Below, piece by piece: positions 9,253-47,761 of a stretch of 64,000 nt of DNA. The notes beneath the pieces are model-generated. The model saw only the letters and a program-made list of their open reading frames with translations, was not told the DNA's origin and ran no database searches. The DNA comes from Pontibacter korlensis (GTDB lineage: Bacteria; Bacteroidota; Bacteroidia; Cytophagales; Hymenobacteraceae). Position numbers and translations under genes: made by a program. The DNA lies in the NCBI RefSeq assembly GCF_000973725.1, contig NZ_CP009621.1:682001-746000 (forward strand), written 5' to 3'. The number at the start of each line of letters is the position of its first letter. Positions within the stretch are counted from its first letter, which is position 1.

Positions 9253-10713
9253 CTAGTTAAGAGGGAAGTAGCTCTTGGCGTTATAATAGCAGATATCCTG
9301 TACCATTTTGCCTATCCAAGGAATGTCGGCAGGCAGTAGACCCTGCTCCACGTCATTGCCAAACATGTTGCACACCAGCCTTCTGAAATACTCGTGGCGG
9401 GAGTATGAAAGGAAGCTGCGCGAGTCTGTAAGCATGCCGATAAAGCAGCTGATAAGCCCCATGTTTGAGAGTGCATCCATCTGCGCCTTCATGCCGTCCA
9501 GCTGATCAAGGAACCACCAGGCTGAGCCGAACTGCATCTTGCCCTTGATGCCGCTTTGCTGAAAGTTTCCTATCATGGTGGCGAAGGCAGCGTTATCAGC
9601 CGGGTTCAGGTTGTAGATGACTGTTTTGGCCAGCTTTTTTTCGCCCTCCAGTTGGTTGAAGAAGGCCGACATGGCGGCTATCTGGGTATAATCGCCGATA
9701 GAATCATAGCCGGTGTCGGGCCCGTTTACTTTTAACATGCGGGCGTTATTATTGCGAATAGCCCCCAAGTGAAATTGCTGTACCCAACCTTTCTCGTTGT
9801 ACATTCTGCACAGCTCCAGAAGTATAAATCCTGCGAACTCCTCCTGATAAGCATCTGCCTCTGTGTCATTCCCAGCTAGTACAGCTGCAAAAGCCTTCTC
9901 CAGGTTCCCGCTGTACACGCCTACCCATGGCAGGTTAGACAAACCATGATCGGAAATGCGGCAGCCGTTGCTATGGAAATAATCTATCCGCTGCTGCAAC
10001 GCCTCCAGCAGAGAGTCTATACGTGTAATCTCCACCTGGCTCACCTCTGCAAGCTGCTGCAAGTAGGTTCTAAAGCTATCCCCACCACTCAGTTTCAAGG
10101 CCTTATCCGGGCGGAAAGAAGGCAGCACTTTGATTTTGAAAGACGAGTTAGCTAGCTGCTGGTGGAAGTATAAATTATCCGTCGGGTCATCCGTAGTGCC
10201 TACCATTTCCACATTAAAATGCTCCAGTAGCCCCTGCGGCGTATACTCCGGCTGCTGCAGTAAAGAACTGCAGTGTTCGTAAACTTCCAGCGCGTTTTCT
10301 CCTGTCAGCAGTTCGGTAACACCAAACGGATTCTTCAACTCCATCTGCGCCCAGTGGTAGAGCGGATTGCGCATAGTATATGGCACAGCCTCTGCCCACT
10401 TCAAGAACTTCTCCTCGTCTGTTGCATCGCCGGTAATATACTTCTCGTCGATACCCAGGGTGCGGAGCGCGCGCCACTTGTAATGGTCGCCGGCCAACCA
10501 GATGCTGGTCATGTTTTCAAAATTCCTGTTCTCTGCCATCTGCTGCGGTGACAAATGGCAGTGGTAATCTATAATCGGGAGCCCCTTTGCATAATCGTGG
10601 TACAGCTGCCGGGCAGTATCCGTCTGTAGCAGAAAGTCCTCGTTCAGGAAACTATTACCCGTTTGCGGCTTCAACTCCCTTTTAGAGGTTTGTAACATTG
10701 TATCGTGGGTCAT
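9253..10713 (-). CDS. uxaC: Glucuronate isomerase
   Basis: The 486-residue protein has the UxaC signature IIDYHCHLSPQQMAENRNF and is full length for the family. UxaC isomerises D-glucuronate to D-fructuronate (or galacturonate to tagaturonate) in the cytoplasm, the first step after uptake. The annotated start overlaps the 3' end of uxuA by 32 bases; a second in-frame ATG at 10698 would reduce this to 17. Either way the two genes are likely translationally coupled. ExuT follows 28 bases downstream. The next step, fructuronate to mannonate, has no UxuB of the polyol dehydrogenase type in the window; see the SDR at 23146. Confidence 0.96.
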   Translation of the reverse strand: MTHDTMLQTSKRELKPQTGNSFLNEDFLLQTDTARQLYHDYAKGLPIIDYHCHLSPQQMAENRNFENMTSIWLAGDHYKWRALRTLGIDEKYITGDATDEEKFLKWAEAVPYTMRNPLYHWAQMELKNPFGVTELLTGENALEVYEHCSSLLQQPEYTPQGLLEHFNVEMVGTTDDPTDNLYFHQQLANSSFKIKVLPSFRPDKALKLSGGDSFRTYLQQLAEVSQVEITRIDSLLEALQQRIDYFHSNGCRISDHGLSNLPWVGVYSGNLEKAFAAVLAGNDTEADAYQEEFAGFILLELCRMYNEKGWVQQFHLGAIRNNNARMLKVNGPDTGYDSIGDYTQIAAMSAFFNQLEGEKKLAKTVIYNLNPADNAAFATMIGNFQQSGIKGKMQFGSAWWFLDQLDGMKAQMDALSNMGLISCFIGMLTDSRSFLSYSRHEYFRRLVCNMFGNDVEQGLLPADIPWIGKMVQDICYYNAKSYFPLN

Positions 10714-23145: not shown

Positions 23146-23904
23146 ATGAACTCAGATTCCAACACAGCAACTAAGACGGCCATTGTAACTGGTGGAGCAT
23201 CAGGACTTGGCTATGCCATAGCTCAGAAATTTGTTGAAGAAAACATCCGCACCATCATTATCGCCAGGAACGAGCAAAAACTGCAGGAGGCCAAAGGAAA
23301 ATTTGGCAACCTGTGCTCCTACATTGTTTTCGACCTGACAAACCTTCCACAAATACCAGAATTAGTGACTGGAATTGTAGAAGAGTATGGCAAAATTGAT
23401 ATCTTAGTGAATAACGCAGGCATTAATTTAAAGAAGCCTTTCACAGAAGTAACAGACGAAGACTTTCAAAAAATCATGCTTACGAACGTTACTGCTGTAT
23501 TTGCTCTAAGCCGCGAAGTAGTGAAAACAATGCTACCACACGGGAACGGGGCCATTGTAAATATTAGCTCCATGGCTGCCCAGTATGGTATCCCGAAGGT
23601 TATTGCCTATTCAGCGTCCAAAACAGCGATAGAAGGCATGACAAGAGCCATGGCTGTAGAACTATCGCCACTTGGCATCAGGGTAAACTGTATAGCACCG
23701 GGCTTCATCGCTACCGATATGTCTGCCAAAGCATTGGATAATGACCCGGAGCGCAAGAACAAGGTGTTATCCCGCACTCCAATGGGTAAACTAGGAACTC
23801 CGGCCGATATAGCTGAGGCAGTATACTATTATGCCTCTGAAGGGGCTAAGTATGTTACAGGTACAGTACTGCCTGTAGACGGAGGAAATTCAATCGGCTT
23901 TTAA
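23146..23904 (+). CDS. SDR oxidoreductase, probable fructuronate reductase (mannonate oxidoreductase)
   Basis: The 252-residue short-chain dehydrogenase has the cofactor motif TGGASGLGYAIA, NNAG, catalytic Ser in NISSMAAQYG and intact YSASK (Tyr-x-x-x-Lys). The closest textbook relatives are gluconate 5-dehydrogenase/3-oxoacyl reductase-like SDRs. Between uxaC (makes fructuronate) and uxuA (uses mannonate) an NADH-dependent reductase is required, and no UxuB of the mannitol dehydrogenase family is present. In Bacillus subtilis that step is done by an SDR, so I infer the same here. The position directly after the alpha-glucuronidase supports it. An alternative is a xylose or aldonate dehydrogenase. 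Confidence 0.75.
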   Translation: MNSDSNTATKTAIVTGGASGLGYAIAQKFVEENIRTIIIARNEQKLQEAKGKFGNLCSYIVFDLTNLPQIPELVTGIVEEYGKIDILVNNAGINLKKPFTEVTDEDFQKIMLTNVTAVFALSREVVKTMLPHGNGAIVNISSMAAQYGIPKVIAYSASKTAIEGMTRAMAVELSPLGIRVNCIAPGFIATDMSAKALDNDPERKNKVLSRTPMGKLGTPADIAEAVYYYASEGAKYVTGTVLPVDGGNSIGF

Positions 23905-29884: not shown

Positions 29885-31600
29885 CTACAGGTTTCCTTTC
29901 TTCATCTCGCTCACGGCGTAATCTACAGCGCGTGCGGTAAGCGCCATATATGTCAGGGAAGGGTTCTGTGTGGCTGTAGAAGTCATACACGCTCCGTCTG
30001 TTACGAAAACATTCTTGCAGGCGTGCAGCTGGTTATACTTGTTGAGCAGCGAAGTCTTAGGATCATGTCCCATTCTTACGCCTCCCATCTCATGTATGTC
30101 CAGGCCTGGAGCCTGCTTCGAGTCTGTCGTTCGGATATTGGTAAAGCCTGCCTTAGTGAACATCTCTGTCATCTGCTCCAGGTAATCTTTCACCATCTTC
30201 TCATCATTGTCGTCGTAGCCTATCGAGATGTTGAGCAGTGGCATTCCCCAGGCATCTTTCTGGTCCTTGCTCAGGCTTACCTGGCTCTCTTCCTTCGGTA
30301 TGGTTTCACCCATCATGTGAGAGCCTACCCTCCAGTTTGTCAGGCCTGGATTAAGAAGCTGCTGCTTCAGATCAGCCCCAAACCCAGAACGGTCTTCTGT
30401 GTTATACCTGCCAGCACTAAAACCAGCCGCATATCCACGCAGGAAGTCTGTTTCCTGCTTGTGTAGGTTCCTGAAACGAGGAATATAACCTCCTCCGGCT
30501 GGGTTGCGGCCATCGGTGGCATACTCCATCAGCCCATCGTATTCTGCCGATATACGCGCCCTGTAGTTATGGAAAGCGACATACTTGCCTAGCAGTCCAT
30601 TGTCGTTGCCCAGCCCGTTCGGGAACCTGGAGGAAGTGGAGTTAAGCAGGATGTGGTTTGTATTAAGGGCAGCCGCATTCACGAATATGATGTTGGCATA
30701 GTACTCAGTCACCTCTTTGGTGTTTGCATCGATCACGCGCACGCCGCTTGCCTTGCCCGCCTTCTCGTCATAGATAACCGACTCCACTACGGAGAACGGC
30801 AGCAGTGTCAGGTTGCCTGTGCGTTCCGCCCACGGAAGCGTAGACGAGTTGCTGCTGAAGTACCCTCCAAACGGGCAGCCTCGCTGGCAAAGGGTACGGT
30901 TCTGGCACTGCGCCCTGCCTTGGTCCAGGTGTATCTGGTTAGGCTTGGAAAGATGTGCGCAGCGCGCACTGATCACGTGCCTGTTGCCGTACTGCTTTTG
31001 CAGTTGCTGTTTAAAGTAGTCTTCCACGCTGTTAAGCGGGAAAGCCGGCAGGAAGTCTCCATCAGGCAGTTCAGCAAGGCCGTCGCTGTTGCCGGAGATG
31101 CCTGCAAACCTCTCTACATACGTATACCAGGGCGCAAGGTCTTTATAACGTATAGGCCAGTCTACAGCAAAACCATCCCGGGCAGGCCCTTCAAAGTCAA
31201 GCTCGCTCCAGCGCTGCGTCTGCCGCGCCCACAACAGCGATTTGCCTCCTACTTGATAGCCGCGTATCCAGTCAAAAGGCTTCTCCTGCACGTAAGGGTG
31301 CTCTGAGTCCTTTACAAAGAAGTGCATGGCATCTTCACGGAAAGCATAGCAACGGCTCACCACCGGCTCCTTCTTCCTGATCTCCAGCGGCACCTCTCCC
31401 CTGTGCTCAAACTCGTAGGGCATTTTGTTAGTGGTAGGATAGTCACGGTTGTGCTTCACATCCCGCCCCCTCTCCAGCACCAGGGTCTTCAGGCCTTTTT
31501 CGGTTAGCTCTTTGGCTGCCCAGCCTCCGCTAATGCCAGAGCCAATAACAATAGCGTCGTAAGTACGCTGCTTTACACTGTCTATGTTTAGGTTCGCCAT
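29885..31600 (-). CDS. GMC-family FAD-dependent oxidoreductase, large subunit
   Basis: The 571-residue protein has the FAD-binding dinucleotide motif AIVIGSGISGGWAAKEL near residues 15-31, a VGGKSLLWARQTQRWSELDF segment, and the C-terminal catalytic His region DIHEMGGVRMGHDP with NVFVTDGACMTSTATQNPSLT. Cysteines in NRTLCQRGCPFGG resemble those of gluconate/sorbitol-type membrane GMC enzymes. It follows, by 3 bases, a gluconate 2-dehydrogenase subunit-3-like gene. Such pairs oxidise sugars, polyols or glycosides (for example at C3 of glycosides) and pass electrons to the respiratory chain. It has no signal of its own and probably travels with the Tat-signalled small subunit. The substrate is unknown and no cytochrome c gene is adjacent. 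Confidence 0.85.
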   Translation of the reverse strand: MANLNIDSVKQRTYDAIVIGSGISGGWAAKELTEKGLKTLVLERGRDVKHNRDYPTTNKMPYEFEHRGEVPLEIRKKEPVVSRCYAFREDAMHFFVKDSEHPYVQEKPFDWIRGYQVGGKSLLWARQTQRWSELDFEGPARDGFAVDWPIRYKDLAPWYTYVERFAGISGNSDGLAELPDGDFLPAFPLNSVEDYFKQQLQKQYGNRHVISARCAHLSKPNQIHLDQGRAQCQNRTLCQRGCPFGGYFSSNSSTLPWAERTGNLTLLPFSVVESVIYDEKAGKASGVRVIDANTKEVTEYYANIIFVNAAALNTNHILLNSTSSRFPNGLGNDNGLLGKYVAFHNYRARISAEYDGLMEYATDGRNPAGGGYIPRFRNLHKQETDFLRGYAAGFSAGRYNTEDRSGFGADLKQQLLNPGLTNWRVGSHMMGETIPKEESQVSLSKDQKDAWGMPLLNISIGYDDNDEKMVKDYLEQMTEMFTKAGFTNIRTTDSKQAPGLDIHEMGGVRMGHDPKTSLLNKYNQLHACKNVFVTDGACMTSTATQNPSLTYMALTARAVDYAVSEMKKGNL

Positions 31601-31603
31601 GGC

Positions 31604-32149
31604 TTAGCTGATTTGTGCTTTGTTAACAGGGAAATAAGCGTTGTACCTTCCTGGTACCAACTCGTAAATCCGTAGCTTGGTCATTACAAGCTCGGAGTTA
31701 AGGTATCCTTTTATTGTCTGGTTTTTAAGGATTTCATAAAAAGCAAGCACCTCTTCAGGAGCATTTTTGGCGTTAACGGCCGCAATCACCTCATTCTTTT
31801 GTTTTGAACTTAAGTCAACAAAAGAATTGCCCGTTTGCTTTTTAGTCAACTCCTCAAACGCATCCATACCTTTCATAAAAGACTGCTGCTCTTCTGCCTC
31901 ATAGCAGTCGTCCAGCATCTTGAGCGCAAACAGGTGCAGTCCCATCTCCTTGGCCCCTGGAGTATCGGTGGCAGGTATAATGGTGTCCACCACCTCTGCC
32001 AATAGCTTCTCCTGCTCTTCTGAAACACTCAGGTGCTGCAGGCTGATGGAGGCCTTTGCCTCTTCCATCATGCACGAGGGAAGCAACATGGCTCCACCCG
32101 TAAACAGCAGCAAGCCTTTAACAACGGAACGCCTATTCATATATCTCAT
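31604..32149 (-). CDS. Gluconate 2-dehydrogenase subunit 3-like protein with Tat signal
   Basis: A small (about 180 residues) companion of the GMC subunit. The twin-arginine motif MNRRSVVKGLLLF with a following LLPSC suggests Tat export and perhaps lipidation. An upstream ATG at 32176 would add nine residues; starts at 32149 or 32140 place the RR motif properly near the N-terminus, so I chose 32149. The helical body (LLAEVVDTIIPATDTPGAKEMGLHLFALKMLDDCY) is typical of the gluconate_2-dh3 family. It is expected to carry the FAD subunit across the membrane and dock the complex. Confidence 0.85.
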   Translation of the reverse strand: MRYMNRRSVVKGLLLFTGGAMLLPSCMMEEAKASISLQHLSVSEEQEKLLAEVVDTIIPATDTPGAKEMGLHLFALKMLDDCYEAEEQQSFMKGMDAFEELTKKQTGNSFVDLSSKQKNEVIAAVNAKNAPEEVLAFYEILKNQTIKGYLNSELVMTKLRIYELVPGRYNAYFPVNKAQIS

Positions 32150-32636
32150 TTTTTGATTATACTTTGTCTGTAACACAGCATGCTTCTGGAGACGTCAGCA
32201 CCTCTTTATACTTAGGAGCTCTGTACCCTACTCCTAATACTATTAGCTATGTTAAGGGAACGTGAAAGCAATCTACAAAATCACACACAACTCCTCAACA
32301 CATCATGATATAAATATAAGCAGATTTATCAAATATCATACTTGCGATCAATACTTACAGTGATTACTTACTGCAATTTATCTTTGATGACCACTCCCTA
32401 AGGCACCTCAAAACAAGCTCCTCATTATCAAAACTATACCCTCGCCTAATTACAATAGCGCATAAACCCCAGTCTCTCTCCTGGGCTAGTAACCTGTTGT
32501 CATCTGATCCTAAACAAAAAGCTTAGAGACGAGTAGCAGCAACAGCATAGCTTGCTCTTCTACATATTCACCTCCAACAACTTTAATCTATTTAATTGTT
32601 CAAACATTAAATATAATTTTTTAATAACACAAATTA

Positions 32637-38267: not shown

Positions 38268-39050
38268 TTAACTAAGTGCTCTATCCAAGTGTACATAACC
38301 ACCATCTACATACACTAGCTGCCCGGTAGTATGGCTGGATTTGTTGGATAGTAGAAAGGCCACCGTGTTAGCAATCTCCCTGGTAGTAGTCATACGTTGC
38401 TCCAGCGGAATTTTCTCAGTGATGGCCTTAAGCTTTTGCTCCGGATCGTTAAAGGTGCTTATCCACGATTCATATAGCGACGTCCAGGCTTCAGCTACGA
38501 TAACGGCATTTACCCTGATGCTGTAAGGCAGCAACTCTACAGCCCACTCTCGCGTGAGGGCGTTGCGTGCACCGTTGGAGGCGGCATAAGCCGAGGTTCC
38601 TCCCTGCCCTGTATCGGCTGTTTTGGAGCCTATGTTTACAATAGCTCCCTTCGATTTCTTAAGTGCCGGCAGGGCATGGTGTGCCATCAGGTAATAATGC
38701 ACCACATTTTTATGAAGCGAGGCCATAAATGCTTCGTAGCTGCCATTTTCTAAGCCTACTCCATCATTAACGCCGGCGTTATTAACCAGTCCATCTACTC
38801 TGCCATACTTTTGCAGCACTGCCTGCACAGCCCGCTCACAAGCAGCAGGATCCGTCAGCTCAGCTACCACCTCAAAAGCCTGCCCTCCGGCAGACTCCAG
38901 TTTTGCCACTACTTTTTGGTTGTCTTCCTTGTTTCTGCCAATAATCACAGGTATGGCGCCTTCGGCAGAGAGAACACTTACAATGCCTTCTCCAATGCCT
39001 TTGGCGCCACCTGTAACTACAATCACCTTATCTTTCAGTTCTAAATCCAT
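38268..39050 (-). CDS. L-fucose dehydrogenase-like SDR with Lys-to-Asn change in the active site
   Basis: The 260-residue protein resembles characterised proteobacterial L-fucose dehydrogenases and Campylobacter FucX: VTGGAKGIGEGIV, GLVNNAGVNDGVGL, VVHYYLMAHHALP, NIGSKTADTGQGGTSAY, ALTREWAVEL and a C-terminus of SHTTGQLVYVDGGYVHLDRAL. Expected reaction: L-fucose to L-fucono-lactone with NAD(P)+. Oddity: the SDR active site Tyr-x-x-x-Lys reads YAASN, with Tyr155 present but Asn159 (AAC, bases 38574-38576) in place of the proton-relay Lys. It is the last gene of the cluster, 12 bases after the lactonase. It may be impaired, use another proton route, or have another role. Confidence 0.82.
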   Translation of the reverse strand: MDLELKDKVIVVTGGAKGIGEGIVSVLSAEGAIPVIIGRNKEDNQKVVAKLESAGGQAFEVVAELTDPAACERAVQAVLQKYGRVDGLVNNAGVNDGVGLENGSYEAFMASLHKNVVHYYLMAHHALPALKKSKGAIVNIGSKTADTGQGGTSAYAASNGARNALTREWAVELLPYSIRVNAVIVAEAWTSLYESWISTFNDPEQKLKAITEKIPLEQRMTTTREIANTVAFLLSNKSSHTTGQLVYVDGGYVHLDRALS

Positions 39051-39062
39051 TTATACTGTGCC

Positions 39063-39896
39063 TTATTTCAGGTTGTAAAATTTGGCTGCATTGCCTCCAA
39101 AGAAAGCGGCCTGTTCCTCCTTCGAAAAGTCGGAAAAGTAATCCTCCACAATACCCAGCATCTCTGTATAGCTTGCTGCCACAAGGCATACCGGCCAATC
39201 TGAACCATAGAGGATGCGGCTGGTGCCAAAGGTTTCCACAATCGTGTCGAGGTAAGGCTTGAAATCTTCTTTCTTCCAGTTCTGCCAATTAGCTTCGGTT
39301 ACCATGCCAGACACTTTGCAGTACACGTTTTCGTGCGCAGCAAAACTCCTCATACTTTCCCGCCATTCGGCTATACTTTGGTTCTTTATGTCCGGCTTTG
39401 CCAGGTGGTCGATCACAAAAGGCTGGTCCGGAAAAGCAGCCGCAAGTTCCTTTGAGTAATCTAGTTGTTCAGGGTAAATGAGCACATCATACGTATAACC
39501 GTACTTGGCAAGTTTGCTTACACCCCGCATAAACTCCGGACGCAACATAATGGCTTTATCTGGATTCCCCTGAAGCACATAACGAAATCCTTTCAGCTTT
39601 TCAAACTGCTTGTAATAAGCGAGCCTTTCCTCAATATCCTCTGCCAGGAAGTCCACCCAGCCAACTACACCCTTTACAAACTCATGCTCTTGCGCCTGCT
39701 CCAGCAGAAAAATATTTTCCTCTTCTGGCTGAGCCGATTGCACTAATACACAGCCATCAAATCGGTGCTGCCGAAGCAGGGGCTCCAAATCCTGTGGCAT
39801 GAAATCCCGCTGGATAACCGCCATTTCATCGGTTATCCAGCTATCGCGCCAAGGGTTATACTTCCAGAAGTGCTGGTGTGCATCAATTCTGAGCAT
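39063..39896 (-). CDS. Amidohydrolase-family sugar lactonase (probable L-fuconolactonase)
   Basis: The 277-residue TIM-barrel protein begins MLRIDAHQHFWKYNP, the His-x-His metal motif of the amidohydrolase_2 family, and ends with LYGSDWPVCLVA, with the conserved Asp. Other marks are GFRYVLQGNPD and FVIDHLAKPDI. The family includes L-fuconolactonase and L-rhamnonolactonase. It overlaps the diketo-acid hydrolase gene by 14 bases and precedes the dehydrogenase that makes its substrate, so hydrolysis of L-fucono-lactone to L-fuconate is the best assignment; rhamnono-lactone is the alternative. Confidence 0.87.
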   Translation of the reverse strand: MLRIDAHQHFWKYNPWRDSWITDEMAVIQRDFMPQDLEPLLRQHRFDGCVLVQSAQPEEENIFLLEQAQEHEFVKGVVGWVDFLAEDIEERLAYYKQFEKLKGFRYVLQGNPDKAIMLRPEFMRGVSKLAKYGYTYDVLIYPEQLDYSKELAAAFPDQPFVIDHLAKPDIKNQSIAEWRESMRSFAAHENVYCKVSGMVTEANWQNWKKEDFKPYLDTIVETFGTSRILYGSDWPVCLVAASYTEMLGIVEDYFSDFSKEEQAAFFGGNAAKFYNLK

Positions 39897-40740
39897 AGGC
39901 CCTCACCGTTTGTTTTGATGAACCCAAGCCCTCGATGCCTAGCTCCACTACATCGCCCTCTTTCAGGTACACCTGTGGGTTCATACCCAGGCCAACACCG
40001 GCAGGTGTGCCTGTGGTGATCATATCACCCGGTAAAAGTGTCATAAACTGGCTTAGGTAAGAGATCAGGAATGGGATCTTGAAGATAAGATTGGCTGTTG
40101 TGCCATCCTGCATCGATTTTCCGTTCACTGTAAGCCACAGGCGCAGGTTATTCACATCTCCCAGTTCATCCGAAGTAGCCAGGAAAGGGCCTACCGGGGC
40201 AAACGTATCGTTGCTTTTGCCTTTTACCCATTGTCCTCCGCGCTCCAGCTGAAAGGCTCGCTCACTGTAGTCGTTGTGCAGGGTATACCCAGCTACGTAA
40301 TCCAGCGCATCCTCCTCAGACACATAACTTGCCTTCTTGCCAATCACCACAGCTAGCTCCACTTCCCAATCCAGCTTTTCTGAATTTCTCGGGATGATTA
40401 CATCATCGTTAGGGCCACAAAGCGCTGAGGTGGCCTTGAAGAAAATGATCGGCTCCTGCGGTACAGCAGCATTTGTTTCTTTGGCGTGATCGGCGTAGTT
40501 CAAACCTATGCAGACAATCTTGGACGGACGCGCAATAGGAGATCCAAGACGTACACCGTCAGATACCTGTGGCATACTGCCCTCGTTCTGCTGCACATAT
40601 GCCTTTAGCCGCTCAAGGCCATTGTTCTGGAAGAACTGTTCATTGTAGTCCTCCCCGAAGGCAGACACATCGTACTTTACATTATTTAAAATTACGCCGG
40701 CTTTCTCCTGGCCCGGCTCACCAAATCTGAATAATTTCAT
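39883..40740 (-). CDS. Fumarylacetoacetate hydrolase-family protein (probable 2,4-diketo-3-deoxy-L-fuconate hydrolase)
   Basis: About 285 residues from the ATG at 40738-40740 (MKLFRFGEPGQEKAGV), preferred over an upstream ATG at 40773, whose extra residues do not fit the family. FAH-domain marks are CIGLNYADHAKETN, PIIFFKATSALCGPNDDV, DWEVELAVVIGKKA and LLPGDMITTGTPAGVG. In the Xanthomonas L-fucose route an FAH-family enzyme splits 2,4-diketo-3-deoxyfuconate into pyruvate and L-lactate. The position between the ketodeoxyfuconate dehydrogenase and the lactonase fits. It is the step that makes LutABC useful. Confidence 0.87.
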   Translation of the reverse strand: MKLFRFGEPGQEKAGVILNNVKYDVSAFGEDYNEQFFQNNGLERLKAYVQQNEGSMPQVSDGVRLGSPIARPSKIVCIGLNYADHAKETNAAVPQEPIIFFKATSALCGPNDDVIIPRNSEKLDWEVELAVVIGKKASYVSEEDALDYVAGYTLHNDYSERAFQLERGGQWVKGKSNDTFAPVGPFLATSDELGDVNNLRLWLTVNGKSMQDGTTANLIFKIPFLISYLSQFMTLLPGDMITTGTPAGVGLGMNPQVYLKEGDVVELGIEGLGSSKQTVRAYAQN

Positions 40741-40856
40741 TTTAAAGTATAGCTTGTAAGTATGTAGCTGCACCGAAAGATGCTTGTTCTACTTGTTATT
40801 CCGTACATCTTTTTCCAAGAAGAGAAACTAACAGAGTTCCTTAAGACCAGATTATA

Positions 40857-41621
40857 CTAGTTGTTAAGCCTGATAAACCCACCATCTATTGGATAGTCAC
40901 AACCGGTAATAAAGCCTGCCTCATCAGAACACAGAAAGAGAGCCAGGGCCGCTACTTCCTCTGGTTTAGCCATGCGCCCGATGGGCTGCGTTTTGGAAAG
41001 CTTTTCGAACATTTCCTCCTCCTTTCCCGGATAATTTTTAGCGATAAAACCATCCACAAAAGGCGTATGTACACGCGCTGGCGACACACTGTTGCAACGG
41101 ATGTTAGCTCCCAGGTAATCTTTAGCCACCGACATGGTCATGGCATGTATGGCTCCTTTGCTCATAGTATAAGCAAATCTGTCTGGAATCCCCACATGCG
41201 ATGCGATAGACGCCAGGTTAAGTATAGCCCCACTTCCATTTTGCTTCATACCTGCTACCGCAGCCTGCAGACAGTTATAGGCTCCCTTCACGTTTACCTG
41301 GTAGATTCTATCCATGTCCTCCTCTGAAGTCTTCTCCAGGTTTCCCACATGTGCTATGCCTGCATTGTTGATCAATATATCTAATGCTCCTATAGCTTCA
41401 AAAACTTCTTTTACCTGCCCCTGCTTGCTCACATCGCAGGTGTGGCTATAGGCGCGGCCTCCTTCAGCCTCTATCTCGGTGAGTGTCTGTGCTGCCGCAT
41501 CTTTTTGCAGCTCTATTATATGCACCTCGGCCCCCTGCCGGGCAAAAACAATGGAAATAGCCTTGCCGATGCCGCTTCCGCCGCCAGTAACTACAGCTTT
41601 TTTTCCGGTTAGCTTAAACAT
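40857..41621 (-). CDS. SDR, probable 2-keto-3-deoxy-L-fuconate dehydrogenase
   Basis: The 254-residue SDR has the cofactor site TGGGSGIGKAISIVFA, NNAG, NLASIASHVG and a normal YTMSK active site (compare the fucose dehydrogenase-like SDR in the same cluster). The IITGCDYPIDGGFIRLNN-type ending (FITGCDYPIDGGFIRLNN here) is typical of these dehydrogenases. In the oxidative L-fucose/L-rhamnose routes an SDR oxidises the C4 hydroxyl of the 2-keto-3-deoxy acid to give the 2,4-diketo acid. Gaps of 93 bases to the dehydratase and 116 to the hydrolase separate it. Confidence 0.8.
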   Translation of the reverse strand: MFKLTGKKAVVTGGGSGIGKAISIVFARQGAEVHIIELQKDAAAQTLTEIEAEGGRAYSHTCDVSKQGQVKEVFEAIGALDILINNAGIAHVGNLEKTSEEDMDRIYQVNVKGAYNCLQAAVAGMKQNGSGAILNLASIASHVGIPDRFAYTMSKGAIHAMTMSVAKDYLGANIRCNSVSPARVHTPFVDGFIAKNYPGKEEEMFEKLSKTQPIGRMAKPEEVAALALFLCSDEAGFITGCDYPIDGGFIRLNN

Positions 41622-41714: not shown

Positions 41715-43367
41715 CTACAGGGAAACGCCTCTTTTCCAGAAGATGAAATCATCCTGTCCCAGCTCCATTGCTTTGGTGTCATACTCTCCGCTGGCTAGCC
41801 CTATTATATATTCCAGGTATTCCTCGCCCAGCTCTTCAATGGTCTTGTCACCGCTGATAACAGCACCGGCGTTAAGGTCTATAATGTCCGGCAGGCGATT
41901 AGCTAGAGAAGTGTTAGTGGCAACTTTCACAACCGGGGAGACAGGGTTACCTGTAGGGGTGCCCAGGCCGGTTGTAAACAGCTGCACATTACAGCCTGCC
42001 CCGGCCATGGCGGTAGTGCTTTCCACATCATTACCAGGTGTGCAAAGCAGGGTTAAACCACGCTTACGCACATATTGTCCATAGCCCAGTACGTCGGTTA
42101 CAGGAGAGGTGCCTCCTTTTTTAGCTGCACCCGCAGACTTAATGGCATCCGTTATTAGGCCGTCCCGGATGTTACCCGGGGAAGGATTCATATCAAAGCC
42201 AGAACCCACTGCTTCTGCACGAGCGGCATACTCCCGCATCAATCTTACAAAACGGTCGGCGGTTTCCTCGTCAACGCAGCGGTTAATCAGCTCCTGCTCT
42301 ACACCACAAAGCTCTGGAAACTCACTTAGTACCACTTTGCCGCCTAAAGCCGCTACTAAATCGGCTGTGTAGCCCACCGCAGGGTTTGCTGAGATGCCCG
42401 AGAAACCATCAGAGCCTCCGCACTCCACTCCTATTACCAATTTATCCAGCGTGGCGGGTTTTCTCTCGCAGTGGTTAGCCTCGGCTATACCTATAAAAGT
42501 CTGCAAAATCGCCTCCGACAGCATCAGGGATTCAGAGGCAGCTTGCTGCTGTTCAAAAATCAAAAGTGGCTTTGAGAAATCAGGATCCCGTTCCTTTATT
42601 TTTTCCTGCAGTATGGCTACCTGCGCATGCTGGCACCCAAGGCTTAGCACAGTGATGCCAGCCACGTTAGGATTAACGCAATAGCCAGCCAGTAGCGCAC
42701 AAAGGTTATCTGCATCTTCGCGGGTGCCTCCGCAACCGCCATCATGCACAATAAACTTAACCCCATCTACATTTGGAAAGAGGCGATGCTGTGCAGCAGA
42801 CTCAGAGGGTTTGTTTGGTTTATACTCCCGCAGGTCTTTGCCCTGCCGGTATAAGTCAGCCAGCTCTCGCACCTGCGCCTGGTACTTGTCTGGTGAAGCA
42901 TAGCCTAGCTCCTTCAGGAAAGCATTCTTAAGCGTTTCAATGTTTCTGTTTTCGCAGAATACCAGGGGCAGAACCAACCAATAGTTGCGTGTTCCTACCT
43001 GCCCATCTGCCCGGTGGTAGCCCATAAAGGTGCGATCCTTCCATTTGCTTACCTCCGGCGCCTGCCACTCATACTGTCCTGTCCGCTGGGCAAAATCCTG
43101 CGCTGCGTGTTTCAGGTTTTCGGTAGTTAGAAGGCTACCGGCAGGCAAGGCACAGGTGGTTTTACCCACTAACACCCCATACATATACACCTCCGCCCCG
43201 GGCGCAAAGTCTGCCGCCGTAAATTTGTGTTTGGCCTGTACGGTCTCCCGCAAAGGAAACTCCTGTCCGTTAAAGTATATGCCTGTACCCGCTTCCTGAT
43301 CCTGAAGGGCAACCAGTACATTATCTTTCGGGTGAATCTGCAGGTAGGATTGTTTGGTTGTTATCAT
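41715..43367 (-). CDS. UxaA-family dehydratase, probable L-fuconate dehydratase
   Basis: The 550-residue protein has both parts of the altronate dehydratase family in one chain: a SAF domain (about 10-90) and the catalytic domain (FMGYHRADGQVGTRNYWLV onward, with HDGGCGGTREDADNL, ECGGSDGFSGISANPAVG and FTTGLGTPTGNPVSPV). Annotated relatives act on D-altronate, but the galacturonate partners UxaB and KDG enzymes are missing here and the surroundings are fucose genes. In Campylobacter jejuni a split UxaA serves the fucose cluster. I therefore infer L-fuconate to 2-keto-3-deoxy-L-fuconate, replacing the enolase-family fuconate dehydratase of Xanthomonas. It overlaps lutC by 4 bases. Confidence 0.83.
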   Translation of the reverse strand: MITTKQSYLQIHPKDNVLVALQDQEAGTGIYFNGQEFPLRETVQAKHKFTAADFAPGAEVYMYGVLVGKTTCALPAGSLLTTENLKHAAQDFAQRTGQYEWQAPEVSKWKDRTFMGYHRADGQVGTRNYWLVLPLVFCENRNIETLKNAFLKELGYASPDKYQAQVRELADLYRQGKDLREYKPNKPSESAAQHRLFPNVDGVKFIVHDGGCGGTREDADNLCALLAGYCVNPNVAGITVLSLGCQHAQVAILQEKIKERDPDFSKPLLIFEQQQAASESLMLSEAILQTFIGIAEANHCERKPATLDKLVIGVECGGSDGFSGISANPAVGYTADLVAALGGKVVLSEFPELCGVEQELINRCVDEETADRFVRLMREYAARAEAVGSGFDMNPSPGNIRDGLITDAIKSAGAAKKGGTSPVTDVLGYGQYVRKRGLTLLCTPGNDVESTTAMAGAGCNVQLFTTGLGTPTGNPVSPVVKVATNTSLANRLPDIIDLNAGAVISGDKTIEELGEEYLEYIIGLASGEYDTKAMELGQDDFIFWKRGVSL

Positions 43368-43963
43368 GGGTGTTGATTGTCTAGGATAAATACGTGCATT
43401 CTTTTTGGGCCATGAGCTCCTATTACCAGCGATTGCTCTATATCGGCTGTTCTGGATGGCCCCGCAATAAAGGTCCCATAGCCTGTGGCCGCTATGTTCA
43501 GCCTGTCATATGCCTCATGCATAGTGCCTACAATATCCTGTTGCCGCACTACCAAGGCCAGATGTTCACAAATGAAGGGCAGAACACGTGCCGGCACAGA
43601 CTCCTCTGTTACCCAGATTGCACCGTTCTCTGCTACGCCCATTTGCCCCTCTACTACCGCTAGCTCTAAATTGGCTAAGTGATGTCCTTCCGCAATTGCT
43701 TCCCTTACCTCTAAACCGAAACCGACACCATCAACTGTGTTCAGTATTCGCTCAGGAGAAACAAAGTTGTCTTTCAAATAAGCTCCTATGCCAGCCATAT
43801 CCGGCACTCCAACTACTATACTTCCTGCCGCCTCAGCACTCTGCCTAAACAAGGCAGCCCATTGCTCTGAAGGCGGAGTAAAAAAGGCTACAGCTTCTGG
43901 AAGAGGCACCTGAGGCGGCTTGTTGGCTTTTACTCGTGATAATATTTTTTCCCGGCTGCTCAT
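43364..43963 (-). CDS. lutC: LutC/YkgG-type LUD domain protein of L-lactate oxidation
   Basis: The 199-residue LUD-domain protein begins MSSREKILSRVKANKP and contains GVAENGAIWVTEESVPARVLPFICEHLALVV and GTFIAGPSRTADIEQSLVIGAHGPKRMHVF, which identify LutC. With LutA and LutB it forms the flavin-independent complex that oxidises L-lactate to pyruvate. ATGA overlaps join it to lutB upstream and the UxaA-family gene downstream. Confidence 0.93.
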   Translation of the reverse strand: MSSREKILSRVKANKPPQVPLPEAVAFFTPPSEQWAALFRQSAEAAGSIVVGVPDMAGIGAYLKDNFVSPERILNTVDGVGFGLEVREAIAEGHHLANLELAVVEGQMGVAENGAIWVTEESVPARVLPFICEHLALVVRQQDIVGTMHEAYDRLNIAATGYGTFIAGPSRTADIEQSLVIGAHGPKRMHVFILDNQHP

Positions 43964-45351
43964 TTTTCACTTCTGTTCTTTAGGTACCAGTCCCTGAAAC
44001 TCTCTTTAGGCGGCTGTGGCATTTCCCGCTGCTTAGCCCAAGGGTTCAAGGCCTTGTTATTCGCTAGTCCAGGCATCATGCGCATCATCAGGCGGCCAGA
44101 CTTTCCAGCTACTCTATACAGCCTCGGGTTAGAGAGCACATTCGCCATAACCTTCATACCCTGTGCTTTTGATTTCGGCACGTGCCCCTCCTGCACCAGC
44201 ACCTGCCGCCACTGGTACAGTTGGTTGTGTATATCAATTTTTACAGGGCATACATTGGTACAGGAACCGCAAAGAGTGGAGGCAAAAGGCAGGTCTGCGT
44301 TCTTCCTCATATCTGCATTAGGAGCTAATATGGCTCCGATAGGCCCGGCAATTGTGTTATGGTAGCTGTGCCCTCCGCTTCTGCGGTACACAGGGCAGGT
44401 GTTAATGCAGGCACCGCAGCGGATACACTTTAGGGAGTTGTAAAAGTGTGGCCTCCCAAGTTGGGTGCTGCGCCCATTGTCCACTAACACGAGGTGCATT
44501 TCCTGCCCAGCACGCGGCTTGTGAAAATGGCTGGAATATGTAGTGATAGGCTGGCCGGTGGCACTACGGGCCAGCAAGCGCAGGAACACACCGAGGTGCT
44601 CTGCCTTTGGAATTATCTTTTCGATACCCATACAGGCAATATGTACCTTTGCCAGGTGCACGCCCATGTCGGCATTGCCTTCGTTAGTGCATACTACCAA
44701 TCCACCGGTTTCAGCGATGGCAAAGTTCACACCTGTTATAGCAAGATCGGCTGTAAGAAACTTCTCGCGTAGGTGCTGCCGTGCCGACTCTGTAAGGTAG
44801 GCTGGATCAGAGGCTCCTTTTTCTGTACCCAGGTGCTGGTGAAAGATCTCTCCTACTTCTTCTTTTCTCTTATGGATGCTTGGCAGCACAATGTGGCTTG
44901 GCGGTTCTTTAGCTAGCTGCACAATACGCTCCCCAAGATCTGTGTCTACTACATCTATGCCATTCGAGGTTAAGAAGTCGTTCAAGTGGCATTCCTCAGT
45001 CAGCATAGATTTGCTCTTGACCAGCTTCTGAACGCCATGCTTTTGAATGATATCTAGAACAATTCGGTTATGCTCTGCCCCATCAGCCGCCCAATGCACT
45101 TTTATGCCGTTTTCCAGTGCTTTCTTTTCAAACTGAATTAAATAGTCATCTAAGTTGGCCAGCACATTCTGCTTTATTTGGGAGGCGGCATTACGGAGCT
45201 GCTCCCAATCTGGTATTTGCCTGGCGGTTACATCGCGTTTTTGCCGAATAAACCACAAAGCCTGATCATGCCAGTTGGCACGCTCCTGGTCCAGGAGAAA
45301 CTTTGCAGAGGCTGCTGCATGGTCGGGGGTGGTAGTGTTACGGTTACTCAT
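43960..45351 (-). CDS. lutB: LutB/YkgF-type iron-sulfur protein of L-lactate oxidation
   Basis: The 463-residue protein has an N-terminal LUD domain (LTEECHLNDFLTSNGIDVVDTDLGERI, NFAIAETGGLVVCTNEGNADMG) and a C-terminal pair of 4Fe-4S sites: Cys309, 312, 315 and 319 in CIRCGACINTCPVY and Cys361, 364 and 368 in LCGSCTNVCPVKID. It is the central electron-carrying subunit of LutABC. Overlaps of 8 bases with lutA and 4 with lutC imply translational coupling. Confidence 0.95.
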   Translation of the reverse strand: MSNRNTTTPDHAAASAKFLLDQERANWHDQALWFIRQKRDVTARQIPDWEQLRNAASQIKQNVLANLDDYLIQFEKKALENGIKVHWAADGAEHNRIVLDIIQKHGVQKLVKSKSMLTEECHLNDFLTSNGIDVVDTDLGERIVQLAKEPPSHIVLPSIHKRKEEVGEIFHQHLGTEKGASDPAYLTESARQHLREKFLTADLAITGVNFAIAETGGLVVCTNEGNADMGVHLAKVHIACMGIEKIIPKAEHLGVFLRLLARSATGQPITTYSSHFHKPRAGQEMHLVLVDNGRSTQLGRPHFYNSLKCIRCGACINTCPVYRRSGGHSYHNTIAGPIGAILAPNADMRKNADLPFASTLCGSCTNVCPVKIDIHNQLYQWRQVLVQEGHVPKSKAQGMKVMANVLSNPRLYRVAGKSGRLMMRMMPGLANNKALNPWAKQREMPQPPKESFRDWYLKNRSEK

Positions 45352-46084
45352 AGCTACTGTTTAATATCTCGGCCATGTGTATCACTTTTACCGGGCTATT
45401 CTTCCGACGCAGAATTCCCTCCAGGTGCATCAGGCAAGACACATCGCCACCGGTTATATACTCGGCTCCGTTCAGCTGATGATCTGCCACACGGTCTTGT
45501 CCCATCTTAACCGAAACAGCCTCTTCTGACACACAGAAGGTGCCACCGAAGCCGCAGCATTCATCCTTCCTGTTTAGCTCCACCAATTCAATATCCTTTA
45601 CCAAACGCAGGAGATAACCGGGCTTTGAAAAATCTTCAGCTACGAGCTCGGACATCTGCGCTAGATGAAGCCCTCGCTGGCCGTGGCAGCTAATATGAAA
45701 ACCTACTTTATGAGGAAAGCGAGCCTCTAGCTCCGTTACCTGTAACACATCGGTCAGGAACTCGCTAAGCTCAAATATGTTGTTGCGGATATGTGTGGCA
45801 GCAGCCTCATTTCCCGCTGCGTATAAGTGCTCCTTCACGTGCAGCACACAGCTACCAGAGGGCGAAACAATATAATCGTAACCAGAGAAGTTCCTTGTAA
45901 ACAAGGCATCACACCCTTTAGCAAGCGATGCAAACCCAGAATTGGCCATAGGCTGGCCGCAGCAAGTCTGCTGTAGCGGATACGCCACTTCTACACCCAA
46001 CTTCTCTAACAGCTGCAAAGTTGCTATTGCCACCTGTGGGTAAAACTGATCGATGTAACAGGGAATAAACAGTCCTACTTTCAT
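45344..46084 (-). CDS. lutA: LutA/YkgE-type cysteine-rich CCG domain protein of L-lactate oxidation
   Basis: About 246 residues from the ATG at 46082-46084 (MKVGLFIPCYIDQFYPQ). A longer frame from 46114 exists but its extra residues do not match the family, and the chosen start forms an ATGA overlap with the mutarotase stop. Two CCG iron-sulfur/heterodisulfide-reductase-like motifs are seen: QQTCCGQPMANSGF and DECCGFGGTFCVSEE, with HISCHGQRGL between. It is the first of three lut genes. Confidence 0.94.
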   Translation of the reverse strand: MKVGLFIPCYIDQFYPQVAIATLQLLEKLGVEVAYPLQQTCCGQPMANSGFASLAKGCDALFTRNFSGYDYIVSPSGSCVLHVKEHLYAAGNEAAATHIRNNIFELSEFLTDVLQVTELEARFPHKVGFHISCHGQRGLHLAQMSELVAEDFSKPGYLLRLVKDIELVELNRKDECCGFGGTFCVSEEAVSVKMGQDRVADHQLNGAEYITGGDVSCLMHLEGILRRKNSPVKVIHMAEILNSSYE

Positions 46085-46410
46085 AAAGCAAATATCTTCT
46101 TCATTTGTTGCCACTTTTCTCCTTCCTTAGTACCTGGCAGGGCCTTTTGGTATTTCCACATAAGGTTTTCCCACTCCTGTACCTTAGGATTAGCGGCATC
46201 CATACTTTCTTTTTGCTCAAAGCTGAACTCCTCACTTACCTCCATCACCATAAACAAGCGATTCTCCCACCTGTAGATTTCCATCTGTTCCACGCCAGCT
46301 TCTTGTATACTTTTCTTTATTTCTGGCCAGACCTCTTTATGGTACTCCTCATACTCCGCTATCAGAGTGGGGTCATCTTTTAAATCTAGCGCAAAACAGA
46401 ACTTGGGCAT
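46081..46410 (-). CDS. L-rhamnose/L-fucose mutarotase-like protein
   Basis: 109 residues from the ATG at 46408-46410 (MPKFCFALDLKDDPTLIAEYEEYHKEVWPEIKKSI). A longer frame to 46521 would overlap fucP by over 90 bases and its extra residues are not family-like, so the short form is preferred. The YHKEVWPEI stretch with its catalytic His and EIYRWENRLFMVMEVSEEF mark the RhaM (DUF718) family. Such mutarotases interconvert the anomers of 6-deoxyhexoses, supplying the dehydrogenase with its preferred anomer. It lies 19 bases after fucP and overlaps lutA. Confidence 0.88.
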   Translation of the reverse strand: MPKFCFALDLKDDPTLIAEYEEYHKEVWPEIKKSIQEAGVEQMEIYRWENRLFMVMEVSEEFSFEQKESMDAANPKVQEWENLMWKYQKALPGTKEGEKWQQMKKIFAL

Positions 46411-46429
46411 ACTATGACTTATGTAAAAG

Positions 46430-47761
46430 TTATGAATGAACAATTTGGGCAGGCTCCTCCGGCAACGCTTCAACTCCTCCTCTTGGCCTATCGCCTCCCA
46501 GCTTTTCTGCCGCAAGCGCATAGCAGGCTACCACCACAAAGCATATCATCGGCACGTAAAATGCCATGCCTATGTCCTGCGTCAGGTCAGAAAAATAGCC
46601 TTGCACTGATGTCAGCACGGCTCCTCCCAGTATCGCCATTATCAGTCCTGATCCACCAATTTTTGTGTCTTCGCCCAAGCCCTTTATTCCCAGGCCATAG
46701 ATAGTAGGGAACATCAACGACATACAACCAGATATACCTATTAAAGCATACACTCCTATTAAGCCGCTTCCGTAAATGGCTACAAGTGTTAGGCCTGCGG
46801 CTGCTACGGCAGTAAAGAATAGCAGCGTTGCCGGTTTGATGTATTTCATCAGGGCTGTGAACGCAAACCTGCTCACCATAAACAGTATCAGAGAAGCCAT
46901 GTAGTAGTTGGAAGCTTCGTCCTCATTAACCTGTAGCTCTAGCATAACATAGCGGATCGTAAAAGACCACACGCCAATTTGTGCCCCCACATAAAAGAAC
47001 TGAGCCACCACCGCCCAAACGTAATGCGGCGTCTTGGCCAGCCTCCTGAAAGTAGGGAGCAAGTCGAGCTTAGATCCGGCATCTGAGGCTTTGGGCATTT
47101 TAGTAAAGGCTATCACTCCCCAGAGAAGCACAAGGAAAAGAGCCACCCCTACGTAAGGTCCCATTACGGCCGTAAGCTCCTCTGACTGCACAGCGGTAAG
47201 TTCTGCAGGCGTCATTTGGGATCGTTCCTGGGCAGTTAACTGGCTTAGTTGGGATAGGATAAACACCTTACTCAACAACACGCCTGAGATGGAGCCTATG
47301 GGATTGAATGACTGCGCAAGGTTTAACCGCCGGGTGCCAGACTCTTCCGGTCCCATGGCTACTATATAAGGGTTCGCTGCCGTTTCTAATATGGAAAGAC
47401 CACCTGCCAGCACATACAACGCCACCAGGAAATAACCATAAGACAGTGTAAGGCTGGCTGGGTAAAACAGAAATGCTCCCAGTATAAACAACCCTAACCC
47501 CACAAGTATGCCCGTTTTGTAGGTGTACTTCTTTATAAGTATAGCTGCAGGCAGCGCAAGGCAAAAGTACGCTCCGTAAAAAGCCATCTGAATCCAGGAT
47601 GTCTGAAAATCAGACATACTCATTATTCTTTTGAAGGCAGCCAGTAAGGTATCGGTCATGTTGTTGGCCAGCCCCCACAGAAAGAAGAGACTTGTGACTA
47701 GGACGAAGGGCCAAACGTTGCCCGATCTAAGAAGGGAGGCTTTTCTTGTGGCTTTATCCAT
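46430..47761 (-). CDS. fucP: L-fucose:H+ symporter, FucP family
   Basis: The 443-residue MFS transporter shows the FucP-family features FVLVTSLFFLWGLANNMTDTLLAAF, SWIQMAFYGAYFCLALPAAILIKKYTYKTGI and SILETAANPYIVAMGPEESGTRRLNLAQSFNPIGS. It starts the ten-gene minus-strand cluster and is divergent from the AraC regulator. L-fucose is the best substrate guess; glucose/galactose transporters of the same family are the alternative. Confidence 0.9.
   Translation of the reverse strand: MDKATRKASLLRSGNVWPFVLVTSLFFLWGLANNMTDTLLAAFKRIMSMSDFQTSWIQMAFYGAYFCLALPAAILIKKYTYKTGILVGLGLFILGAFLFYPASLTLSYGYFLVALYVLAGGLSILETAANPYIVAMGPEESGTRRLNLAQSFNPIGSISGVLLSKVFILSQLSQLTAQERSQMTPAELTAVQSEELTAVMGPYVGVALFLVLLWGVIAFTKMPKASDAGSKLDLLPTFRRLAKTPHYVWAVVAQFFYVGAQIGVWSFTIRYVMLELQVNEDEASNYYMASLILFMVSRFAFTALMKYIKPATLLFFTAVAAAGLTLVAIYGSGLIGVYALIGISGCMSLMFPTIYGLGIKGLGEDTKIGGSGLIMAILGGAVLTSVQGYFSDLTQDIGMAFYVPMICFVVVACYALAAEKLGGDRPRGGVEALPEEPAQIVHS

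Follow-up and report, generated by a model that had tools for sequence, protein, structure and literature searches.

A probable L-fucose dehydrogenase gene with a modified active-site motif

We analyzed a 64,000-nucleotide stretch (the window) of the genome of Pontibacter korlensis (5.46 Mb, one contig). The gene located at positions 38268 to 39050 on the minus strand is an uninterrupted open reading frame encoding a stand-alone protein of 260 amino acids. The product is a classical SDR with a score of 423.8 bits for the NCBIfam L-fucose dehydrogenase model NF052481 (curated cut-off of 300), in agreement with the family assignment of a preliminary description based on the DNA alone. Its nearest named relatives are proteins of Pontibacter species (87–90% identity).

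The Lys of the YxxxK motif is taught as nearly universal in classical SDRs. The protein of the window harbors Asn159 at this position, and we refer to family members with Asn or Lys at position 159 as Asn-types and Lys-types, respectively. Direct reading of the sequence identified the codon as AAC (gtt on the plus strand, 38574–38576). The motif, YAASN, extends from Tyr155 (38586–38588) to Asn159 and thus occupies positions 38574 to 38588. The preliminary description had correctly reported the AAC codon, the intact frame, and the motif, although the interval that it proposed (38574–38586) ends within the Tyr codon. The Asn, Ser, and Tyr residues of the SDR tetrad are all present as Asn115 (38706–38708), Ser142 (38625–38627), which is conserved in 127/127 Asn-type and 19/19 Lys-type aligned sequences (rows), and Tyr155, which is kept in all 164 sampled Asn-types. 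The cofactor motif TGxxxGxG is present as TGGAKGIG, with Gly15 and Gly18 in 127/127 Asn-type rows. Since the strict YxxxK signature is replaced by YAASN, with Asn in 164/164 proteins of the clade, the protein is a classical SDR variant by descent and fold rather than a strict-motif member. The two other SDRs of the window retain Lys, as had been noted, with YTMSK in the protein encoded at 40857–41621 and YSASK in that encoded at about 23167–23886.

Organization of the fucose gene run

The Asn-type gene is the last of a run of minus-strand genes encoding, in the order of transcription, FucP, a mutarotase, LutA, LutB, LutC, a UxaA-type dehydratase, a second SDR, an FAA hydrolase, an amidohydrolase lactonase, and the Asn-type SDR. 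The L-fucose:H+ symporter FucP (46430–47761) scored 459.7 bits with TIGR00885 (cut-off of 280.4). It is followed by a RhaM/FucU-type mutarotase (46081–46521; PF05336, E value of 7e-34), the listed start of which is probably too far upstream, and by the lactate-utilization genes lutA, lutB, and lutC (43364–46114), which were recognized by LUD and CCG domains and by a LutB score of 446.3 with TIGR00273 (cut-off of 444.8). The UxaA/GarD-type sugar-acid dehydratase (41715–43367; PF20629 and PF04295) is a probable L-fuconate dehydratase, with a TIGR03248 score of 270.7, under the cut-off of 730.85. The second SDR (40857–41621), assigned to SDR families, is a probable 2-keto-3-deoxy-L-fuconate dehydrogenase according to its position in the operon; among the 25 models listed, the sole threshold that it exceeds is that of a broad 'glucose 1-dehydrogenase' subfamily (228 versus 215). 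The FAA hydrolase (39883–40773; PF01557) scored 360.3 bits with NF053535, under the cut-off of 500, and the amidohydrolase (39063–39896; Amidohydro_2), a probable L-fucono-1,5-lactonase, scored 285.5 bits with NF052480, under the cut-off of 400. Since these matches are below cut-off or to broad models, the exact substrates of the lactonase, the FAA hydrolase, the dehydratase, and the second SDR are putative, whereas FucP and LutB pass their thresholds. Read together, and as judged by these family matches, the gene run is the set for an oxidative route converting L-fucose to pyruvate and lactate, and the NF052481 member adjoins it.

Distribution of Asn and Lys at position 159

In 210 distinct family proteins, including that of the window, residue 159 was Asn in 164 and Lys in 46, a ratio that is not a natural frequency because the sample was drawn by similarity to an Asn-type query. 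This set extended an initial set of 126 matching proteins (124 Asn and 2 Lys) with more remote relatives from across the phylum. Matches with less than 45% identity and repeated proteins were dropped from the sample, and rows of fewer than 240 amino acids and near-copies were dropped from row-based analyses. The preliminary description had suggested looking for Asn in relatives, and every relative read at an identity of at least 66% to the window protein does harbor it; Asn-types reach down to 63.5% identity, and the nearest Lys-type is at 65.3%. A phylum-wide draw provided 12 matching genomes outside the class of the window, all of which encode Lys-types. Fourteen of the 39 plasmid records found were read: 13 plasmid-borne relatives were Lys-types, 12 of them outside Bacteroidota (in Pseudomonadota and Acidobacteriota), and one was an Asn-type. 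Among plasmids of Bacteroidota, Microscilla pSD15 encodes a Lys-type and Rufibacter tibetensis plasmid 1 an Asn-type. Among the sampled genomes whose kinship is known, Asn-types occur in only one class of Bacteroidota.

Three records showed particular arrangements. The Lys-type copy of pSD15 (L269; NC_002806.1, 3001–3767) is split between two reading frames, possibly owing to a frameshift or a sequencing error. The R. tibetensis plasmid (L262; NZ_CP012644.1), which is typed as mobilizable, carries fucP and genes for an SDR, an FAA hydrolase, and an amidohydrolase in addition to the Asn-type gene. One genome of the same genus as the window (G041) harbors two Lys-type copies (L180 and L181) and no Asn-type match at an E value of 1e-60.

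Both Asn codons are used at position 159 (AAC in 91 and AAT in 73 of the 164 Asn-types). Comparison of the window gene with five Pontibacter orthologues gave dN values of 0.06 to 0.08 and dS values of 1.7 to 2.1 in three comparisons, dS being saturated in the other two. The gene evolves under strong purifying selection, and Asn159 is neither an isolated change nor a sequencing slip. These observations speak against the proposal, made in the preliminary description, that the first step of the pathway is compromised. A degenerate enzyme, crippled by the substitution, would fit with the retention of Lys by 31 of the 32 further SDRs matched in the window genome (Arg in the remaining one, Asn in none) and with an internal stop in one Asn-type copy (L250, genome G596). 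This explanation is nevertheless extremely improbable in view of the fixation of Asn159 across the clade, the purifying selection, and the conservation of the remaining tetrad residues, and the stop codon was found in L250 alone among the 210 rows.

Two of the SDR paralogues of the window genome have unusual motifs of their own. The first (L281; G000:C1:1663931-1665304) has SNTIR, with Ser for Tyr and Arg for Lys. The second (L285; G000:C1:4286900-4288240) has SACAK, with Ser for the catalytic Tyr and Lys retained, a combination that we take to be reminiscent of dienoyl-CoA reductases.

All Asn-types were located on one side of a single branch in a 167-row tree (SH-aLRT of 93). The support of this branch was 99 in a 119-row tree including 12 Lys-types from other phyla, for which 66 of 126 Asn-types were kept and neither L262 nor the split copy L269 was included, and 98 following removal of columns 113, 159, 162, 163, and 185; these trees were quick searches with no bootstrap. 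Since the sequences from other phyla fall on the Lys side, the direction of the change was likely from Lys to Asn.

Genomic context of the Asn-types and Lys-types

To compare genomic contexts, loci of less than 9 kb were dropped, leaving 162 of the 210 loci (123 Asn-type and 39 Lys-type). Asn-types and Lys-types alike were found in a gene arrangement comprising, in succession, the second SDR, the FAA hydrolase, the lactonase, the Asn- or Lys-type SDR, and FucP (Asn-type loci L095, L106, and L126; Lys-type loci L169, L173, and L174, in a list that omits L118). At least one gene of the fucose route was located near 113 of 123 Asn-type and 36 of 39 Lys-type genes, within a limit of 7 kb that was fully covered on both sides in only 67 of the 162 loci (148 span 5.9 kb). 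At least two of the three core genes, encoding the lactonase, the FAA hydrolase, and the second SDR, were present nearby in 65/123 and 24/39 loci, respectively, leaving 58 of the 123 Asn-type loci without two of the three. At L098 (3682–4539) and similar Mucilaginibacter loci, a distant relative of the FAA hydrolase is located near FucP and the Asn-type SDR, and the usual pathway genes were not seen nearby.

The Asn-type might perform another task in the operon, acting on another substrate or in a non-redox reaction, and L-fucose might be oxidized by the second SDR, by a GMC oxidoreductase, or by an enzyme encoded elsewhere. We consider this possibility quite unlikely. It is favored by the existence of six genomes of a single family (G584, G725, G445, G633, G596, and G732; loci L222–L231, L250, and L251) that hold both types, and in which the Asn-type may therefore be specialized, perhaps for another sugar. 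In several of these genomes, the Lys copy adjoins genes for a zinc dehydrogenase and a lactonase. The second SDR keeps its Lys and passes the broad model mentioned above, but the route also requires a keto-deoxy-fuconate dehydrogenase, an activity that the second SDR could supply. Some Asn-types are also found in short clusters of FucP, the SDR, and a zinc dehydrogenase. The latter enzyme at first seemed specific to the Asn-types in a smaller sample (21/90 versus 0/13 loci). In the wider sample, with looser clustering, it was equally common near both types (33/123 Asn-type versus 11/39 Lys-type loci), and it was rejected as a replacement for the first step.

The preliminary description had proposed the GMC oxidoreductase as an alternative enzyme for this step. 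The gene pair for the GMC oxidoreductase and a gluconate 2-dehydrogenase subunit 3 is located at 29885–32176 of the window and at 10585–12857 of L313. GMC relatives were sought in nine whole genomes, comprising that of the window and eight genomes of the same genus encoding an Asn-type. In one of the eight (G022), a copy with 90% identity and the small subunit are located at most 1 kb from the Asn-type gene. Copies of 72–93% identity were found elsewhere in the genome in G011, G016, G020, and G025. Three of the eight genomes had no GMC relative above 51% identity: G048 has a relative of 51% only, on another contig, and G030 and G034 have none at an E value of 1e-60. A GMC gene was present in one of 16 wide stretches (13 kb downstream from the Asn-type gene, less at contig ends), that of G022. 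A GMC match was detected in 2 of the 123 Asn-type loci, one being only 30% identical, although these stretches are too short for the GMC–SDR spacing of the window itself (more than 7 kb by the measure used). The single positive stretch of 16 and the scattered or absent copies in the same genus rule out the GMC oxidoreductase as a conserved partner of the Asn-type, which occupies the operon slot of the Lys-types; substitution of the first step by the GMC enzyme is weakly supported. The arrangement in G022 (also L058, Pontibacter litorisediminis), the one relative in which the GMC pair adjoins the Asn-type gene, and the spacing in the window would be compatible with a side role.

A residue of the putative substrate lid further argues against another task. 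Trp196 (38463–38465) matches, by alignment register, Trp194 of Campylobacter jejuni FucX, described as a lid residue of an enzyme acting on L-fucose and D-arabinose in excerpts of PMC6946681, and is invariant in 50/50 rows.

Residues co-varying with Asn159

The preliminary description had correctly anticipated that a functional protein would need a substitute for Lys, and column counts provided a concrete candidate. Arg162 (38565–38567) is present in 164/164 Asn-types and 0/46 Lys-types, in which the position is occupied by Gln (26), Val (17), Ile (2), or Met (1). All six Arg codons are used among the Asn-types. The adjacent Asn163 (38562–38564) is found in 161/164 Asn-types versus 4/46 Lys-types, 40 of which have Leu. 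His113 is similarly distributed (161/164 versus 2/46). Position 185, which is Val in the window protein (38496–38498) in place of the Pro of the loop following the sixth strand, is Val in 164/164 Asn-types versus Pro in 31 and Ile in 15 of the 46 Lys-types. Val185 was not retained as an exclusive marker, as Val is also present in two plasmid-borne Lys-types, L265 and L270. Position 115 is Asn in 158 and Ser in 6 of the 164 Asn-types, and Asn in 46/46 Lys-types.

These co-variations are open to more than one interpretation. The dehydrogenase could be functional with a structural Arg162, Asn159 and an ordered water molecule being sufficient for catalysis and the loss of Lys costing rate or shifting the pH optimum. 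We regard this interpretation as rather unlikely. Arg162 may act in packing or at a subunit interface, and the parallel variation of Asn163 and His113 could reflect an interface network. The coupling could also result from hitch-hiking rather than compensation, since it stems from essentially one evolutionary event. In contrast, a scan of all columns in 146 rows identified Arg162 as the sole basic residue shared by all Asn-types and absent from all Lys-types. In addition, among the 32 other SDR matches of the window genome, 31 have a non-polar residue (Leu, Ile, Val, Met, or Ala) at this position, and the remaining one has Gln. Arg is thus unusual at this position, which suggests a role for it.

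Comparison with characterized enzymes

The AlphaFold2 model of the window protein (mean pLDDT of 92.6) predicts that residues 153–172 form a single helix, on which residues 155, 159, and 162 would share a common face by helix geometry. The best solved match of the model is 4gkb (VIA Z score of 36.6, rmsd of 1.9, 253 aligned residues, 55% identity), and the nearest solved structures are the L-fucose dehydrogenases of Burkholderia multivorans and C. jejuni, followed by human HSD17B14. The B. multivorans enzyme, BmulJ_04919 (4gkb, 4glo, and 4gvx), has the same fold and about 55% identity but differs by YCASK, Gln162, and Pro185, where the window protein has Asn159, Arg162, and Val185. FucX (Cj0485; 6drr and 6ds1), with about 45% identity, differs by YASAK and Gln at position 162; its kcat is 16 to 26 per s. 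HSD17B14 shares the SDR fold with about 30% identity and keeps Lys. According to excerpts of PMC11293516, it is an L-fucose dehydrogenase with Ser141, Tyr154, and Lys158 as catalytic residues, and replacement of Tyr154 by Phe (Y154F) inactivates the rabbit enzyme. The entry 6h0m describes HSD17B14 K158A crystallized with NAD, indicating that cofactor binding can survive the loss of this Lys, a point in favor of a structural Arg162.

In PKS ketoreductases, Lys occupies the position of the tetrad Asn. A swap of this type would place Lys at position 115 and is dismissed on the basis of the Asn and Ser found there; the neighboring position 114 varies among the Asn-types (Lys 120, Arg 21, Asn 11, Ser 8, Ala 2, Gln 1, and Leu 1). 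The window protein and these ketoreductases, which belong to the 'complex' SDRs, have YxxxN in common, but the former has Asn at the tetrad position and is not a domain of a multifunctional synthase. YxxxN is given as the motif of 'complex' SDRs in excerpts of PMC3144213, its occurrence is reported in PMC10864336, and it is termed canonical for a PKS ketoreductase in PMC5132015. The acceptance of YxxxN in these enzymes also favors a structural role for Arg162. Searches of the open-licence PMC literature retrieved neither a description of an L-fucose dehydrogenase of the Asn-type nor papers on the ketoreductase/lysine swap or on HSD17B14 K158A. The parts of PMC9007349 concerning fucose, Pedobacter, and Echinicola contain no fitness measurements for fucose mutants of Bacteroidota.

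Discussion

In the explanation that we favor and regard as reasonably probable, the gene encodes a functional L-fucose dehydrogenase whose active site has been remodeled, Asn159 and Arg162 together replacing Lys. The active site appears rebuilt rather than broken because the same change, always accompanied by Arg162, is fixed in a large related group. As predicted from sequence, the enzyme would be NAD(P)+-dependent and would catalyze the first step of the route leading from L-fucose to pyruvate and lactate, with D-arabinose and L-galactose as probable additional substrates. Tyr155 would remain the general base, assisted by Ser142. Asn159 would still be able to form a hydrogen bond with the nicotinamide ribose, and the positive charge tuning Tyr155 would be shifted by one helix turn, on the same face, to Arg162. 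Asn163, Val185, and His113 would accompany this shift. More tentatively, the Asn-types may represent a separate catalytic solution in classical SDRs, in which Lys was lost in the absence of a ketoreductase-type swap and the co-evolved Arg162 supplies the charge. This solution would have a single origin, would now be fixed in many families within one class of Bacteroidota, and would serve to tune a sugar dehydrogenase.

The protein of the window is thus a genuine variant of a known enzyme, fixed across its clade and most likely functional, with Arg162 as a candidate substitute for Lys. The natural loss of Lys across a clade, together with a partner substitution that is completely coupled to it and with a Lys-bearing sister group present in the same operons, offers a ready system for probing the function of this Lys. 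Annotation rules requiring YxxxK would wrongly call the L-fucose step missing in many Bacteroidota.
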